Source: Rippkaea orientalis PCC 8801 (GTDB lineage: Bacteria > Cyanobacteriota > Cyanobacteriia > Cyanobacteriales > Microcystaceae). Taken from it: 64,000 nt of DNA. Shown here piece after piece: positions 57,681 to 63,680 of the stretch. Made by a program: the position numbers and the translations under genes. Location: NCBI RefSeq assembly GCF_000021805.1, contig NC_011726.1, forward strand, positions 372,001 through 436,000. Reading direction: 5' to 3'. Positions within the stretch are counted from its first letter, which is position 1; each line of letters opens with the position of its first letter. The notes under the pieces were generated by a model. It saw only the letters and a program-made list of their open reading frames with translations. It made no database searches and was not told the DNA's origin.

Positions 57681-58025
57681 ATGCACGAACTGGGAATCAC
57701 GCAAAATATTATCGCAATTGTTGCTGAACAGGCTAAAGGGATACCTGTTAAGCGTGTAACTCTAGAAATTGGTCAACTATCTGCGATTATGGCGGATTCC
57801 ATTCGCTTTTGTTTTGATATTTGTTGTCAAGGGACGGTATTAGAAGGAGCAACCCTAGAAATTATTGAGATTTTAGGGAGAGGAAAATGCCGAGACTGTG
57901 GTCAAGAAATTGCTCTTTTTCAACCCTTTGGAACCTGCGATCGCTGTGGCAGTATTCAATTAGAAATTATTCAAGGACAAGAGTTAAAAATCAAGGAAAT
58001 GGAGATCGAAGAAATATGTGTGTAA
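57681..58025 (+). CDS. hypA: Hydrogenase maturation nickel-insertion protein HypA
   Basis: HypA delivers nickel to [NiFe] hydrogenase with HypB. The 114-residue protein starts MHELGITQNI, whose His2 and Glu3 are nickel-site residues, and has a zinc site with Cys70, Cys73, Cys86 and Cys89 (GKCRDCGQE...GTCDRCGS). It overlaps hypB by 10 nt, typical of translational coupling. ATTGTTC (57630-57636) and GAACAAT (57655-57661) form an inverted repeat just upstream, possibly an operator. Confidence 0.93.
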   Translation: MHELGITQNIIAIVAEQAKGIPVKRVTLEIGQLSAIMADSIRFCFDICCQGTVLEGATLEIIEILGRGKCRDCGQEIALFQPFGTCDRCGSIQLEIIQGQELKIKEMEIEEICV

Positions 58026-58870
58026 CTTGCGGTTGTTCTGATGATAGTCAAGCCACTTTAATAAATGTTGAAACAGGGGTTAAAACAGAGATGAATCATC
58101 ATCACCATAGCCATACTTTGCCTGATGGGACGGTCATTACCCATTCCCATGATCACCAAGAACATCATACCCATTTCCCCACAGATACCGCCACAATTCA
58201 TGCTAAAATTCATAGCAATACCATTAGTTTAGAACAAAGTATCCTCAGAAAAAATGACTTAATTGCTGCCCAAAATCGAGGCTGGTTTAAAGGAAGAAAT
58301 ATCCTAGCATTAAACCTGGTTAGTTCCCCCGGTTCAGGGAAAACGACCTTATTAACCCGAACTATTACTGATTTAAAAGATCGCCTTAATATTAATGTCA
58401 TTGAAGGGGATCAAGAAACGGCGAATGATGCCCAAAAAATCCGAGAAACTGGCTGTCAAGTCATTCAAATTAATACAGGGACAGGCTGTCACTTAGAAGC
58501 GGATATGGTAGAAAAAGGGTACAGTCAATTAAATCCCCCTCCTCACTCTATTTTAATGATAGAAAATGTAGGAAATTTAGTCTGTCCGGCTTTATTTGAT
58601 TTAGGAGAATATGCCAAAGTTGCCATTCTTTCGGTAACAGAAGGAGAAGATAAACCGATTAAATATCCCCACATGTTTCGGGAAAGTCAGGTCATGATTT
58701 TAACGAAAATTGACCTACTGCCTTACCTACAATTTGATATTAATCGCTGTTTAGACTATGCCAAAAAAGTCAACCCAAATATCGTTATTTTTCAGGTATC
58801 TTCGACCACAGGAGAAGGGTTAACGTCCTGGTATGATTGGTTAGAAACCACCTTATCAAAGATTTCGTAA
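58016..58870 (+). CDS. hypB: Hydrogenase maturation GTPase HypB
   Basis: HypB is a GTPase that drives nickel insertion. The 284-residue protein, started at the ATG 58016 that overlaps hypA, has a Cys motif at the N terminus (MCVTCGCSDDS), a histidine-rich nickel-storage stretch (MNHHHHSHTLPDGTVITHSHDHQEHHTH, about 24-50), the P-loop SSPGSGKTTL, NTGTGCHLEADMV with metal-site Cys/His, and TKIDLLPYL with VTEGEDKP. No hydrogenase structural gene is in the window. Its last 79 bp overlap the convergent GGDEF gene. Confidence 0.94.
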   Translation: MCVTCGCSDDSQATLINVETGVKTEMNHHHHSHTLPDGTVITHSHDHQEHHTHFPTDTATIHAKIHSNTISLEQSILRKNDLIAAQNRGWFKGRNILALNLVSSPGSGKTTLLTRTITDLKDRLNINVIEGDQETANDAQKIRETGCQVIQINTGTGCHLEADMVEKGYSQLNPPPHSILMIENVGNLVCPALFDLGEYAKVAILSVTEGEDKPIKYPHMFRESQVMILTKIDLLPYLQFDINRCLDYAKKVNPNIVIFQVSSTTGEGLTSWYDWLETTLSKIS

Positions 58871-60159
58871 CAGCCTTTTCCTTTTGCTTTGGCGCGATAC
58901 ATAGCAATGTCTGCATCTCGAATCAAATCATCAGGCAATGAATAGTCAGTAGAACTTAAGACAATGCCAATACTGGTATTAGTCAAGACTTCTTTCCCAT
59001 CAATTAAAAAAGGAACTTGTAGGATTTTATGAATTCGTTGGGCAATTTGAATCGCTTCTTCAGAGGAATGAATATTTTCAAGAAGAATAGCAAATTCATC
59101 GCCTCCAAAACGAGAAATCGTATCAATAGAACGTAAAACATTCCTTAAACGACTGGCAACAGAAGTTAACAGGCGATCACCTATAGGATGGCCTAAACTA
59201 TCATTAATAACTTTAAAGCGATCCAAGTCTAAAAATAATACAGCAAATAAATAAGTTGGATTGCGTTTAACTCGTTCAATAGCATCAATTAAGCGTTCAT
59301 AAAACCAGCGACGGTTAGGCAAATTAGTTAGGGGATCATAAAACGCCTGTCGATGAAGTTTTTGATTCATTAACTTCTGTTCCGTGATGTCCCGAAAGAT
59401 AACAACGACTCCCATACATTGAGATTTTTGCTTCTTCAGAGAAATTATGTCCTTATCTTCATAAATTAAGGCAATACTATCGCCGATAGGAATTTCTTGT
59501 TGATCTTTTGTGATTAAGACTGTATTGTCTGGTAAGTTTTTGATTTGACGGATTTCTAGGGCTTTTGTAATAGGAGATTCAATCGGTTGACGAGTCACTT
59601 CATCAATCAGTTTAAAGACTTCCGTGACGGGTTTTCCCCTGGCTTCTGCTAAAGACCATCCCGTTAAGTGTTCTGCCATGGGATTAAGATAGGTTATTTG
59701 ACCATGAATATCTGTGGTTAGTACTCCATCTCCGACACTTTGTAAAATTGTAAATAACCATTGTTTGTATTCAATCAGTGTTTGTTGAATTTGATGTTTA
59801 TACAGGGCAATTTCTAGGGTAATACGCAAATCTTGTTCAACAAAAGGTTTAATTAAATAGCCATAGGGATTGGTTAATTTTGCCCTTGCTACGGTTTCTT
59901 CATCTCCATGGGCTGTTAAATAAACAATCGGAATATTCCAATTTTTAACAATGATTCCGGCTGCTTCAATACCATCCATTTCACCAATTAAGCGGATATC
60001 CATGAGAATTAAATCCGGTTTAAAGGTGGTAGCTTTTTCAATGGCTAATTCTCCTGAATCTGCGATCGCACAGACTTCATATCCCAACTCTTCTAAGGTC
60101 ATCTGAAGATCTTGGGCTACAATACTTTCATCTTCAACTATTAAGATATTAACTGGCAT
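58792..60159 (-). CDS. Response regulator with REC-PAS-GGDEF domains (diguanylate cyclase)
   Basis: From the ATG at 60159 (a GTG at 60180 would add seven residues) the protein has 455 residues. Domains in order: a receiver (VNILIVEDESIVAQDLQ, with phospho-acceptor in DLILMDIRL), a PAS domain (VGDGVLTTDIHGQITYLNPMAEHLTGWS), and a GGDEF domain with intact SRFGGDEFAILLENIHSSEE. No EAL domain follows. It probably makes c-di-GMP in response to phosphorylation. It is downstream of the large PAS kinase on the same strand, 240 bp away with a MITE-like element between. The 3' end overlaps hypB by 79 bp. Confidence 0.9.
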   Translation of the reverse strand: MPVNILIVEDESIVAQDLQMTLEELGYEVCAIADSGELAIEKATTFKPDLILMDIRLIGEMDGIEAAGIIVKNWNIPIVYLTAHGDEETVARAKLTNPYGYLIKPFVEQDLRITLEIALYKHQIQQTLIEYKQWLFTILQSVGDGVLTTDIHGQITYLNPMAEHLTGWSLAEARGKPVTEVFKLIDEVTRQPIESPITKALEIRQIKNLPDNTVLITKDQQEIPIGDSIALIYEDKDIISLKKQKSQCMGVVVIFRDITEQKLMNQKLHRQAFYDPLTNLPNRRWFYERLIDAIERVKRNPTYLFAVLFLDLDRFKVINDSLGHPIGDRLLTSVASRLRNVLRSIDTISRFGGDEFAILLENIHSSEEAIQIAQRIHKILQVPFLIDGKEVLTNTSIGIVLSSTDYSLPDDLIRDADIAMYRAKAKGKGCYEIFDKVVSNQSYQDVNPSPVVEDT

Positions 60160-60208
60160 TTTTGATAAGTTAGTGAACACGGAACGAAAAACAGAGAATG
60201 GGGATCAG

Positions 60209-60398: not shown

Positions 60399-63300
60399 TT
60401 AATGAATTCTTGTTAAAATAATTTCAAACTGTGTACCTCCCTTGCTATTAATGGTAATTTTTCCTCTCAGTTGATTGGTTAAGCTTTTTACTAATTGTAA
60501 CCCTAAGGTTTTTACTTGATCTAAATCAAAGTCCTTCGGCAATCCTTTGCCATTATCTGTGACGGTTAAAACCAGTTCTTGATTGTTATTGATCATCGCT
60601 TTTAACAAAATTTCTCCTTGATCTCCTATACTAAAAGCGTATTTATAGGCATTAGAAATTAATTCATTGACAATTAAACCACAGGGAACAGCCGCATCAA
60701 TGTTTAAAGAAATTCTGGGATCAATGTTAGCTTTTAAAGTTATTTTGGTTGAAATAGTTTTGTAAGAATTGAGTAAATTATTAACTAAGTCATTAATATA
60801 GTCAGCCAAATTAATACTAGCGATATTTTCAGATCGATAAAGTTTTTCATGCACTAAAGACATGGATCTAACTCGGTTTCGACTTTCCTGTAAAAGTTCC
60901 TTAATACTGCCATCTTGAACAGAACGAGATTGTAAATTAAGTAGACTACAAATTACTTGTAAATTATTTTTAACTCGATGATGAATTTCTCTGAGTAATA
61001 CCTCTTTTTCTTGGAGAGATGCGGCGATTTTTTGTTCGGCTTCCTTGCGATCGCTAATATCGACTAAATAGCCTAAAATTTCTTTGGGTTTTCCCTTGGA
61101 ATCACGCATCAGACGGATCTGTTCAAATAGCCAACAATAAGTACCATCGCTGCGTAAAAAACGAAATTCATGGGAGTGTAATTCCCTGGTAAATATAGTT
61201 GGAAGATTCAAAAGAACCCCTTCTAAATCATCAGGATGAATGTGATCAATCCAAAAGCGAGAGTCATCTAAAAATACTTGACTGCTATAACCTAAAACAT
61301 TGATCACATTCTCACTCACATAGGTTGCTTCAAAATTGCCATCGGATTTACAACTAAAAATAACGACTGGAGAAGAACTAATCAGATATTGAAGTCGTTG
61401 CTCGCTTGCTATTAATGCTTCTTCTGTTTGCTTGCGATCATCAATATCCTCTTGTACTGCTACTAATACTTTACCATAATCCGGATGATCAAAACAACTG
61501 GTAGTGGCACGACACCAAAAGGGAGTACCATCTTTTTTGACATTATAGACTTCATAAGTATATTCTCCTTTTGCTAACACATGATGTCTAATTTCTTGAT
61601 TAACATCTTCAGCACTTTGGCTCTCATCTTCATAATTAACAATCGAAACGTGCTTCCCTTTTAATTCTCCAATTTCATAGCCAAACATCCGTTCAAACTT
61701 CGGATTAGAATAAACAAGTTCCCCATTACTAGCACTGACTAAACAAACCCCTTCTGCCATATTTTTGACGATGACATCTTGTAATTCTAGGGTTTTTTGG
61801 ATGGCTTTACGCTCAGTAATATCTTCAGCAATTCCTGCCATACGATAGATGTTACCCGATTCATCAAGAACGGGAAAACTTCGTGACCAAATCCAACGAA
61901 TTTCTCCATTGGGACGAATAATGCGATATTCTTCATCAAACTTAGTCCCACTCATCATCTGTTTATCAAAGGCAATGGTCACACTTTCACGATCATCAGG
62001 GTGAATGCTATCAATCCAAGCATAGGGATTTTCATAGACTTTCGCACAAGGAATCCCCCAAATTTTCTCAAACGCAGGACTCAGATAGAGTAACTGATAG
62101 GTTTGGGTATCATGGATATATAAAACATCTCTTACATTGTCGATTAATTGACGAAACTTGAGCTTATTTTCCCGTAAAGATTCTTCAATTTGTTTAAGAT
62201 CTGTCACGTTGCGAAGACTAATAACAACACCAGAAATATTGTGATCTGCTTCAACGTAGGGGAAAAAATTAGCGCTAATAAATTGTCTTCCTAAAAGGGG
62301 TAACTCAAACCAATCTTGAGATTTTAGAGGTTCTCCTAAAAAAGTTCGATCAACAAAGGGTTTAACTTGGGTTTGAAAGACTTTCTCTCCTAAAATTTCT
62401 GAAACACGGTGTCCGATAACTTCTTCTGAGGTCTTTTGATGCAAGTTTAGATAAGCTTGGTTAGCCAGTTGATAAGTATAGTCACGATCTAATAAAATTA
62501 CTGCATCGCTAGTAGCTGAAACAATATGTTCATATTGCTTTAATCGAGCTTCTGATTGTTTACGAGAGTTAATATTTTCAACCATAGCAAACCCATAACG
62601 GAGCTTTCCTTGTTCATCTCGCAAGCAAGCTGCTGTCAGCATAACCCAAAGGATCTGACCATTTTTAGTAATGTATCGTTTCTCTAGAGAATAATAGGGA
62701 ATTTCTTGATTGTATAATTGTTCTGCTAACTGTATATCCTTATCAATATCATCGGGATGAGTAACCTCAACAAAGGTTAACGCAAGTAATTCTGACTCAG
62801 AATAGCCTAACATTTGACAGAGAGTATGATTAACATTAATAAACCGATAATCTAACCCTACAATTGCCATTCCTAATGGTCCTTCTTCAAACACCTTGCG
62901 AAATCGTTCTTCGTGTTCTTTAAACAATTTGTCTGCTTGTTTACGCTGACTAATGTCGCGTAAAATAACTGTAAAAATCGTTTCGTTAGGTAGTTTTAAC
63001 TGAGAGATCGATGCTTCTGCGGGAAACTCGGTTCCATCTCGCCGTAACCCAAAAATTTCTCGATGGGGACTCATTTTTCTGGGGATATGATCGGATTCAC
63101 TGAACTCTTTAACGTACTGTTGATGTTCTGAGACAAAACGCTTAGGTAAAAGATAATATAACGGTTTACCAAGGATATCTAAAGCCTTCCAACCAAAGAT
63201 TTTTTCTGCTCCTTGATTAAATAGGGTAATCTGTTGGTTATGATTAATACAAATGATGGCATCTTCTGCTATATTTAAAATCCCCTCTAGACGTGCTTGG

Positions 63301-63680
63301 GAAGTTTCTATAACGGTTTTTATGTCTAGATATTTAGTTTTAGAGATCAAGAAAATGAGATTGATAGCAATATAAATTGATAATAAGGCAGCCAAGGATT
63401 TAATAATAGCAAATAGCCCATTATTTGGATGCCAAAGCGTTGCTATTTCTATCAAATGAATTGTCCCACAGATGATAAGAAAGATACTCAATAAAAGTCC
63501 TATCGATTGATAAGAAAAATCAGGACATTTTCGGCTCAAATAAATCAGTGTTGAGGCAACACAATAATAGGCTATGGTAATTAAAATATCAGAAGTTAAG
63601 TGAAGCGTAATTAAAGAATTTTGCCCATTGCCCAATATAACATCACCATAAAACAGAAAATAAACCAAGAAATAAACCAT
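60399..63680 (-). CDS. Ethylene-receptor-like multi-PAS histidine kinase (HisKA_2)
   Basis: From the ATG at 63680 (a TTG at 63686 would add two residues) the protein has 1093 residues. Residues about 23-112 have three to four membrane spans with Asp31, Tyr38, Cys71 and His75. These have exactly the spacing of Asp25, Tyr32, Cys65 and His69, the ethylene/copper-binding residues of plant ETR1 (D-x6-Y, Y-x32-C, CxxxH). Six PAS domains follow (about 128-870, first [14 protein letters not shown], last [15 protein letters not shown]). The C terminus is HisKA_2 ([20 protein letters not shown]) and HATPase_c ([23 protein letters not shown]). No receiver is fused; the GGDEF response regulator downstream could be its partner. 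Confidence 0.85.

Follow-up and report, generated by a model that had tools for sequence, protein, structure and literature searches.

A strongly diverged ethylene-binding domain in a HisKA_2 histidine kinase of Rippkaea orientalis PCC 8801, encoded next to a GGDEF response regulator

One histidine kinase of Rippkaea orientalis PCC 8801 carries Asp, Tyr, Cys and His in its N-terminal membrane region at the spacing found in Arabidopsis ETR1. A first-pass annotation, made from the sequence alone, therefore proposed an ethylene receptor kinase with an intact copper/ethylene site. Does this region still have the pocket of an ethylene receptor, and which output does the kinase serve? The window analyzed here is the whole stretch of 64,000 nucleotides (contig NC_011726.1, positions 372,001 to 436,000), and all coordinates are window positions unless another contig is given.

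The kinase and its domains are encoded as follows:

60399..63680, minus strand: histidine kinase gene, 1093 aa, with an ethylene-binding domain (EBD), six PAS domains, HisKA_2 and HATPase_c (translation, Pfam, NCBIfam PAS S-box)
63321..63623, minus strand: EBD homologue, residues 20-120, three predicted helices, strongly diverged (PF25487, model, divergence tests)
61026..63305, minus strand: six PAS domains, residues 126-885 (Pfam, NCBIfam)
60762..60989, minus strand: HisKA_2, residues 898-973, phospho-acceptor motif EIHHRVKNN present (Pfam, alignment)
60414..60677, minus strand: HATPase_c, residues 1002-1089 (Pfam)

The reading frame (63680..60399, minus strand, 1093 aa) has no internal stop codon. 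The domain order that had been proposed for the part behind the membrane region (six PAS domains, HisKA_2, HATPase) was borne out by Pfam and TIGR00229. Up to six PAS stretches are recognized by several overlapping Pfam models and six by TIGR00229, while HisKA_2 (E = 2.4e-29) and HATPase_c (E = 9.7e-11), together with the phospho-acceptor histidine, make the protein a HisKA_2 sensor kinase. The same annotation had regarded this as a distinct receptor design. It is not unique, because EBD-PAS(n)-HisKA_2 kinases are present in 14 of 80 loci (the best 80 of at least 566 relatives), among them a Nostoc protein of 1657 aa with eight PAS_3 stretches.

Judged by homology, the N-terminus of the kinase truly belongs to the family of ethylene-receptor N-terminal domains. 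The profile match that had been named as a check was obtained well over the cut-off: ETR1_N (PF25487) matches residues 23-114 with E = 1.7e-22 and 80 bits (cut-off 27). For comparison, scores are 129-151 bits in nine relatives that have the complete domain and 86 in a partial remnant. D31, Y38, C71 and H75 were found at the positions and the ETR1 spacing that had been described, and a six-frame scan of the window (127,996 letters) gives the pattern D-x6-Y-x32-C-x3-H only once, at this EBD. An AlphaFold2 model of residues 1-125 (mean pLDDT 74, pTM 0.58) has helices at 19-51, 58-81 and 88-115, with D31 and Y38 in the first. Model and hydropathy agree in predicting three transmembrane helices, the second of which holds C71 and H75, in line with the topology that had been named as a further check; their placement in the membrane is one that we infer. 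A phmmer search against the PDB gave only two weak matches to nanobodies (E = 0.057 and 0.27), which we take as chance, and a Foldseek search of the model against the PDB gave no match at E<=0.001. Among viral contigs, 28 stretches carry the pattern and none is a relative.

The residues that would form the ethylene site are located as follows:

63588..63590, minus strand: D31 (ETR1 D25), kept (pattern search, alignment)
63567..63569, minus strand: Y38 (ETR1 Y32), kept (pattern search, alignment)
63555..63560, minus strand: V41-A42, replacing ETR1 I35-P36 (alignment)
63477..63479, minus strand: L68, replacing ETR1 I62 (alignment)
63456..63470, minus strand: C71 and H75 (ETR1 C65 and H69, copper ligands), kept (pattern search, alignment)

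Because the D-Y-C-H spacing is that of ETR1, these positions map onto ETR1 without gaps (+6). For scoring, we used seven residues which we take to be those needed for ethylene binding by ETR1 (D25, Y32, I35, P36, I62, C65, H69). The window EBD keeps four of these seven and carries the changes I35V, P36A and I62L. All three copper-site residues (ETR1 C65, H69 and D25) are represented, by C71, H75 and D31, and the equivalent of ETR1 F61 is unchanged (F67). K94 and S101 are also kept, at positions that we assume to correspond to ETR1 K91 and S98, T94 being placed in the same way. The primary alanine scan of ETR1 is reportedly that of Wang 2006. The assumed equivalence of K91, T94 and S98 agrees with the shifts D25-D35 and K91-K98 given for AzoEtr1 (PMC11819568).

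The ethylene site had been called intact. This part of the annotation is unsupported because I35, P36 and I62 are all substituted and because 19 of 44 near-invariant columns (each at least 90% conserved) are changed; membership in the EBD family and the kinase motifs stand. Ethylene binding by ETR1 requires seven residues according to PMC6682694 and PMC11819568. The latter names C65 and D25 and reports that the seven were identified by alanine scanning, so that alanine at P36 was probably one of the changes tested. In PMC6586836, I35, P36, I62, C65 and H69 are called essential, and the count there may exceed seven; PMC8879215 lists Y32, F61, I62, C65 and H69 and says that I62A diminishes binding. 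The ethylene-insensitive tomato mutant Never-ripe is Pro36Leu in ETR3 (PMC6727826).

How unusual these substitutions are was judged from 199 EBD rows, corresponding to 181 distinct sequences, of which 180 were scored at the near-invariant columns; the row left unscored, presumably the partial L024, was too gappy. The genome contigs contributed the best 80 of at least 566 relatives, which are biased towards conserved pockets because they were picked by the consensus patterns SIP or YW.SG. The remaining 115 distinct rows are other loci and 60 extra stretches, namely top-scoring matches to the window EBD, leaving out five matches without a locus and those beyond the top-scoring ones taken. Across the 181 distinct rows, which include those best 80, 165 keep all seven ETR1 residues, nine keep six, five keep five, and one is gapped. 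The window EBD is the sole row keeping four and thus has the fewest, the gapped row being unassessed. In the 180 other EBDs, the P36 position holds P in 169, T in 4, S in 3, A in 3 and a gap in 1; the I35 position holds I in 178, T in 1 and a gap in 1; and the I62 position holds I in 176, T in 2 and M in 2. One row is gapped at both I35 and P36. D25 and Y32 are each conserved in 178 of the 180, C65 and H69 each in 179.

The divergence extends beyond the pocket. At the near-invariant columns the window EBD matches 25/44, the lowest value of the 180 scored (including the best 80 of at least 566), the next being 73% and the median 98%. The PHGxC stretch before helix 1, present in 175/179 ORFs, is lost, and the window protein alone lacks the N-terminal Cys before this helix (present in 178/179 ORFs of the same sample), which is a possible dimer link (PMC6682694). 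In a FastTree phylogeny of the EBDs, the window has the longest end branch of all 181 (1.07; median 0.073), and its identity to 28 other aligned EBDs is 33-49%.

Comparison with a syntenic ortholog shows on which lineage this change occurred. Orthologs were sought with the full-length protein in 50 genomes of the host family, at most 15 candidates being scored per genome. The ortholog from G011, a genome of another genus of this family, shows 68% sequence identity over residues 20-1092 and has the same domain order (EBD-PAS6-HisKA_2). Its EBD scores 144 bits with ETR1_N, as compared to 80 for the window, has the consensus pocket, and keeps 42/44 near-invariant columns. The two EBDs are 46.5% identical (48.9% over residues 23-114), while identity is 60-81% in the PAS domains and 70.7-70.9% in the kinase part (HK). 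Between G011 and G023 (Hydrococcus sp. Prado102; the same sequence as L087, with which it forms an identical pair in the HK tree), identity is 70.3% in the EBD and 53.4% in the HK.

Relative-rate tests on the EBD assign 34 sites to the window and 7 to G011 with G023 as outgroup (p = 2.5e-5), and 31 and 8 with G009 as outgroup (p = 2.3e-4); for the HK, the corresponding counts are 10 and 18 (G023) and 9 and 15 (G009), which is not significant. The excess of EBD change thus sits on the window's lineage and is absent from the kinase. In an HK tree of 24 rows, the window lies on a short branch (0.17) beside G011 with SH-aLRT 100. Pairwise NG86 dN/dS values against G011, which mix both lineages and have a high dS, are 0.445/0.922 (0.48) for the EBD, 0.188/1.078 for the PAS domains and 0.170/0.759 for the HK. 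The excess is amino acid change, since dN is raised in the EBD relative to PAS and HK; the EBD ratio of 0.48 is below 1, so that some constraint may remain. A frameshift or assembly error was considered and rejected because, as judged from the alignment by eye, the differences are scattered substitutions across the whole domain. A mutational hot spot or a genome-wide bias was likewise rejected, given that synonymous divergence is similar across domains and that a second EBD of the host is fully conserved.

The presumed partner of the kinase is encoded next to it:

58792..60180, minus strand: presumed partner response regulator, REC-PAS-GGDEF, 462 aa, 218 bases downstream of the kinase gene on the same strand

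No terminator-like site was found between the two genes, and promoter-like sites are about as numerous there as in shuffled sequence. The GGDEF motif, the receiver Asp and an RxxD site are present (alignment, judged by eye). The pair recurs in G011 (regulator 71% identical), G023 (62%) and G009 (regulator split into two frames), so that an adjacent REC-GGDEF regulator is conserved with the kinase in these three genomes and the window. In G010, the regulator (56%) is adjacent to a related kinase that has no EBD match in Pfam. The window regulator stops after GGDEF, whereas the regulator genes of G011, G023, G009 and G010 end in an EAL domain. An EAL remnant was not found in the window, the best tblastn match (E = 0.17) lying elsewhere in it. 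On the plus strand, positions 57681-58870 hold the open frames of hypA and of a cobW/hypB-like GTPase gene, which overlap each other. The GTPase gene also runs into the 3' end of the GGDEF gene, with which it is convergent, at the place where one would look for the EAL part.

Neighbouring genes were surveyed at 80 loci with 81 EBD ORFs (the best 80 of at least 566 relatives) using home-made profiles; the counts are lower bounds because the cut-offs were strict. Within this set, at least 14 of the 81 EBD ORFs have HisKA_2. A REC-GGDEF-EAL gene, irrespective of a PAS call, comes after three of these 14; nine have a REC-PAS neighbour (eight downstream, one upstream), one has a REC-HisKA_2 gene, and one is without such a neighbour. 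From the same best 80 loci, at least two EBD ORFs in which HisKA_2 was not called lie next to a REC-GGDEF-EAL gene, and at least four carry GGDEF-EAL themselves. In a literature search at the level of titles and abstract openings, with PMC5812497, PMC6682694 and PMC11819568 also consulted, we found no statement that an EBD kinase controls c-di-GMP in cyanobacteria; a negative of this scope carries little weight.

The analysis establishes that the N-terminus is homologous to EBDs, that the frame and motifs of the kinase are intact, that the pairing with an adjacent REC-PAS-GGDEF(-EAL) regulator recurs, and that evolution in the window lineage was accelerated specifically in the EBD. Taken from the sequence, the protein may be a retired or re-tuned ethylene sensor, and we lean towards a former ethylene receptor: its sensor domain would have escaped constraint or taken on another task, with constraint persisting on the kinase and on its c-di-GMP partner. 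The kinase would then be a HisKA_2 histidine kinase, anchored in the membrane and equipped with several PAS domains, whose ancestor was an ethylene receptor of cyanobacteria. As their adjacency suggests, it would hand phosphate to the REC domain of its neighbour and so set the diguanylate cyclase (c-di-GMP) activity. With P36 and I62 (and also I35) of the pocket substituted, the EBD probably binds ethylene more weakly or no longer at all, and input would now come mainly from the PAS domains, or from a non-ethylene ligand at the kept D/C/H metal site. Against a loss stand the kept polar and metal-site residues and F67, the conservative nature of I35V and I62L, in which they differ from the plant mutations, and the presence of T, S or A at the P36 position in 10/180 other EBDs. 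Since the copper ligands are kept, residual or altered ligand binding might persist.

We see some room, albeit with considerable doubt, for a working ethylene receptor in which the copper site would be enough and the pocket substitutions would do no harm beyond, perhaps, a shift in affinity. All metal ligands are kept, as are Y38, K94 and S101; the ETR1_N match is strong (1.7e-22), C71 and H75 lie in a predicted helix, the full open frame, kinase motifs and partner are all present, and the EBD dN/dS is still below 1. Such a receptor is at odds with P36A, I62L and I35V, with the lowest conservation of the 180 EBDs scored (including the best 80 of at least 566), with an acceleration limited to the EBD and to the window lineage, and with the loss of the N-terminal Cys and of PHGxC. 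Improbable in our view is a retuned sensor that would still bind Cu(I) via D31, C71 and H75 and sense copper itself or another small ligand, its pocket having changed under selection with the metal ligands held. It would be consistent with an EBD dN/dS of 0.48, below neutral, although this pairwise value mixes both lineages, and with the sparing of six polar and metal-site residues (equivalents of D25, Y32, C65, H69, K91 and S98) despite 19/44 near-invariant changes; however, the chance of such sparing is about 0.025 for six residues chosen post hoc, that for D/Y/C/H alone is 0.09, and there is no positive evidence for another ligand. We would give no more credit to a scenario in which the ethylene pocket was abandoned, the kept Cu(I) ligands serve to sense copper or another ligand, and the partner c-di-GMP enzyme, two-way at first (GGDEF-EAL), became one-way (GGDEF only). 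A mere chance resemblance, with the region being a three-helix membrane anchor of other origin than ethylene receptors, would fit the identity of only 33-49% to 28 other aligned EBDs, but is refuted for practical purposes by the Pfam match far over the cut-off and by the ortholog with a standard EBD (144 bits) at the same place in the same protein and operon.

The host has a second EBD protein, encoded outside the window (G000:C3:19259-21304; L224:6260-8305, plus strand), with the layout EBD-PAS-GAF-GGDEF and 682 aa. It keeps 44/44 near-invariant columns and a fully conserved pocket, and is a candidate for a direct ethylene-to-c-di-GMP protein. Among six other genomes of the host genus, four are without an EBD match at E<=0.001. 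G037 has an EBD histidine kinase (L225:6391-8403) in which Asn stands where ETR1 has D25, and its branch in the EBD tree ranks second in length. The sole EBD match in G038 (87% complete, 370 contigs) is an open frame of 173 aa (L229:5819-6337), which joins an EBD fragment to a GGDEF fragment, is 60-77% identical there to the host's EBD-PAS-GAF-GGDEF protein, and looks like an internally deleted remnant. With no EBD match in four genomes, the Asn in G037 and the fragment in G038, ethylene-receptor genes look unstable in the host genus. Elsewhere, Kamptonema sp. UHCC 0994 (L138:4252-9438) has two tandem EBD genes, 64 bases apart, followed by a receiver-domain gene. Contigs with non-cyanobacterial labels also carry EBD genes (L060, L089 and L115, Verrucomicrobia MAGs; L116, a MAG labelled Proteobacteria), all from the 80 kept matches to the window EBD (the best 80 of at least 566).

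The window protein shares with Arabidopsis ETR1 and tomato ETR3 the N-terminal three-helix domain and D-Y-C-H at identical spacing, but has V, A and L where ETR1 has I35, P36 and I62 (PMC6586836). ETR1 combines GAF and a DHp/catalytic kinase part with a receiver (PMC12643061), as opposed to six PAS domains and HisKA_2. SynEtr1/UirS (Slr1212) of Synechocystis is likewise a histidine kinase with an N-terminal EBD of the cyanobacterial kind, and its ethylene binding has been demonstrated (PMC6682694); it carries a cyanobacteriochrome and signals to slr1213, whereas the window protein has PAS domains only and adjoins a GGDEF regulator. Geitlerinema PCC 7105 resembles the host in having two EBD proteins, GeiEtr1 and GeiEtr2, both of which keep all seven binding residues (4/7 in the window EBD); the GeiEtr2 gene is grouped with one for a diguanylate-cyclase-domain protein (PMC6682694). 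AzoEtr1 of Azospirillum brasilense also has a response regulator gene just downstream, but keeps the seven residues and has been shown to bind ethylene, and its regulator of 135 aa is without other recognizable output motif (PMC11819568), in contrast to REC-PAS-GGDEF here. EBDs on varied bacterial outputs, including cyanobacterial kinases, are already published (PMC6682694, PMC7700396, PMC11819568). We have not seen a description of a variant that combines a kept D-Y-C-H set with changes elsewhere in the pocket, faster evolution specific to the EBD and a partner lacking EAL.

The annotation of ethylene receptors in bacteria usually relies on homology and on a handful of residues, and this case shows that the D-Y-C-H spacing can outlast other residues of the pocket. 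As a matched pair, the window protein and its ortholog (68% identical, standard EBD) can serve to test which residues matter. For cyanobacteria, a recurring link of EBD proteins to c-di-GMP enzymes is indicated, and this link is testable.
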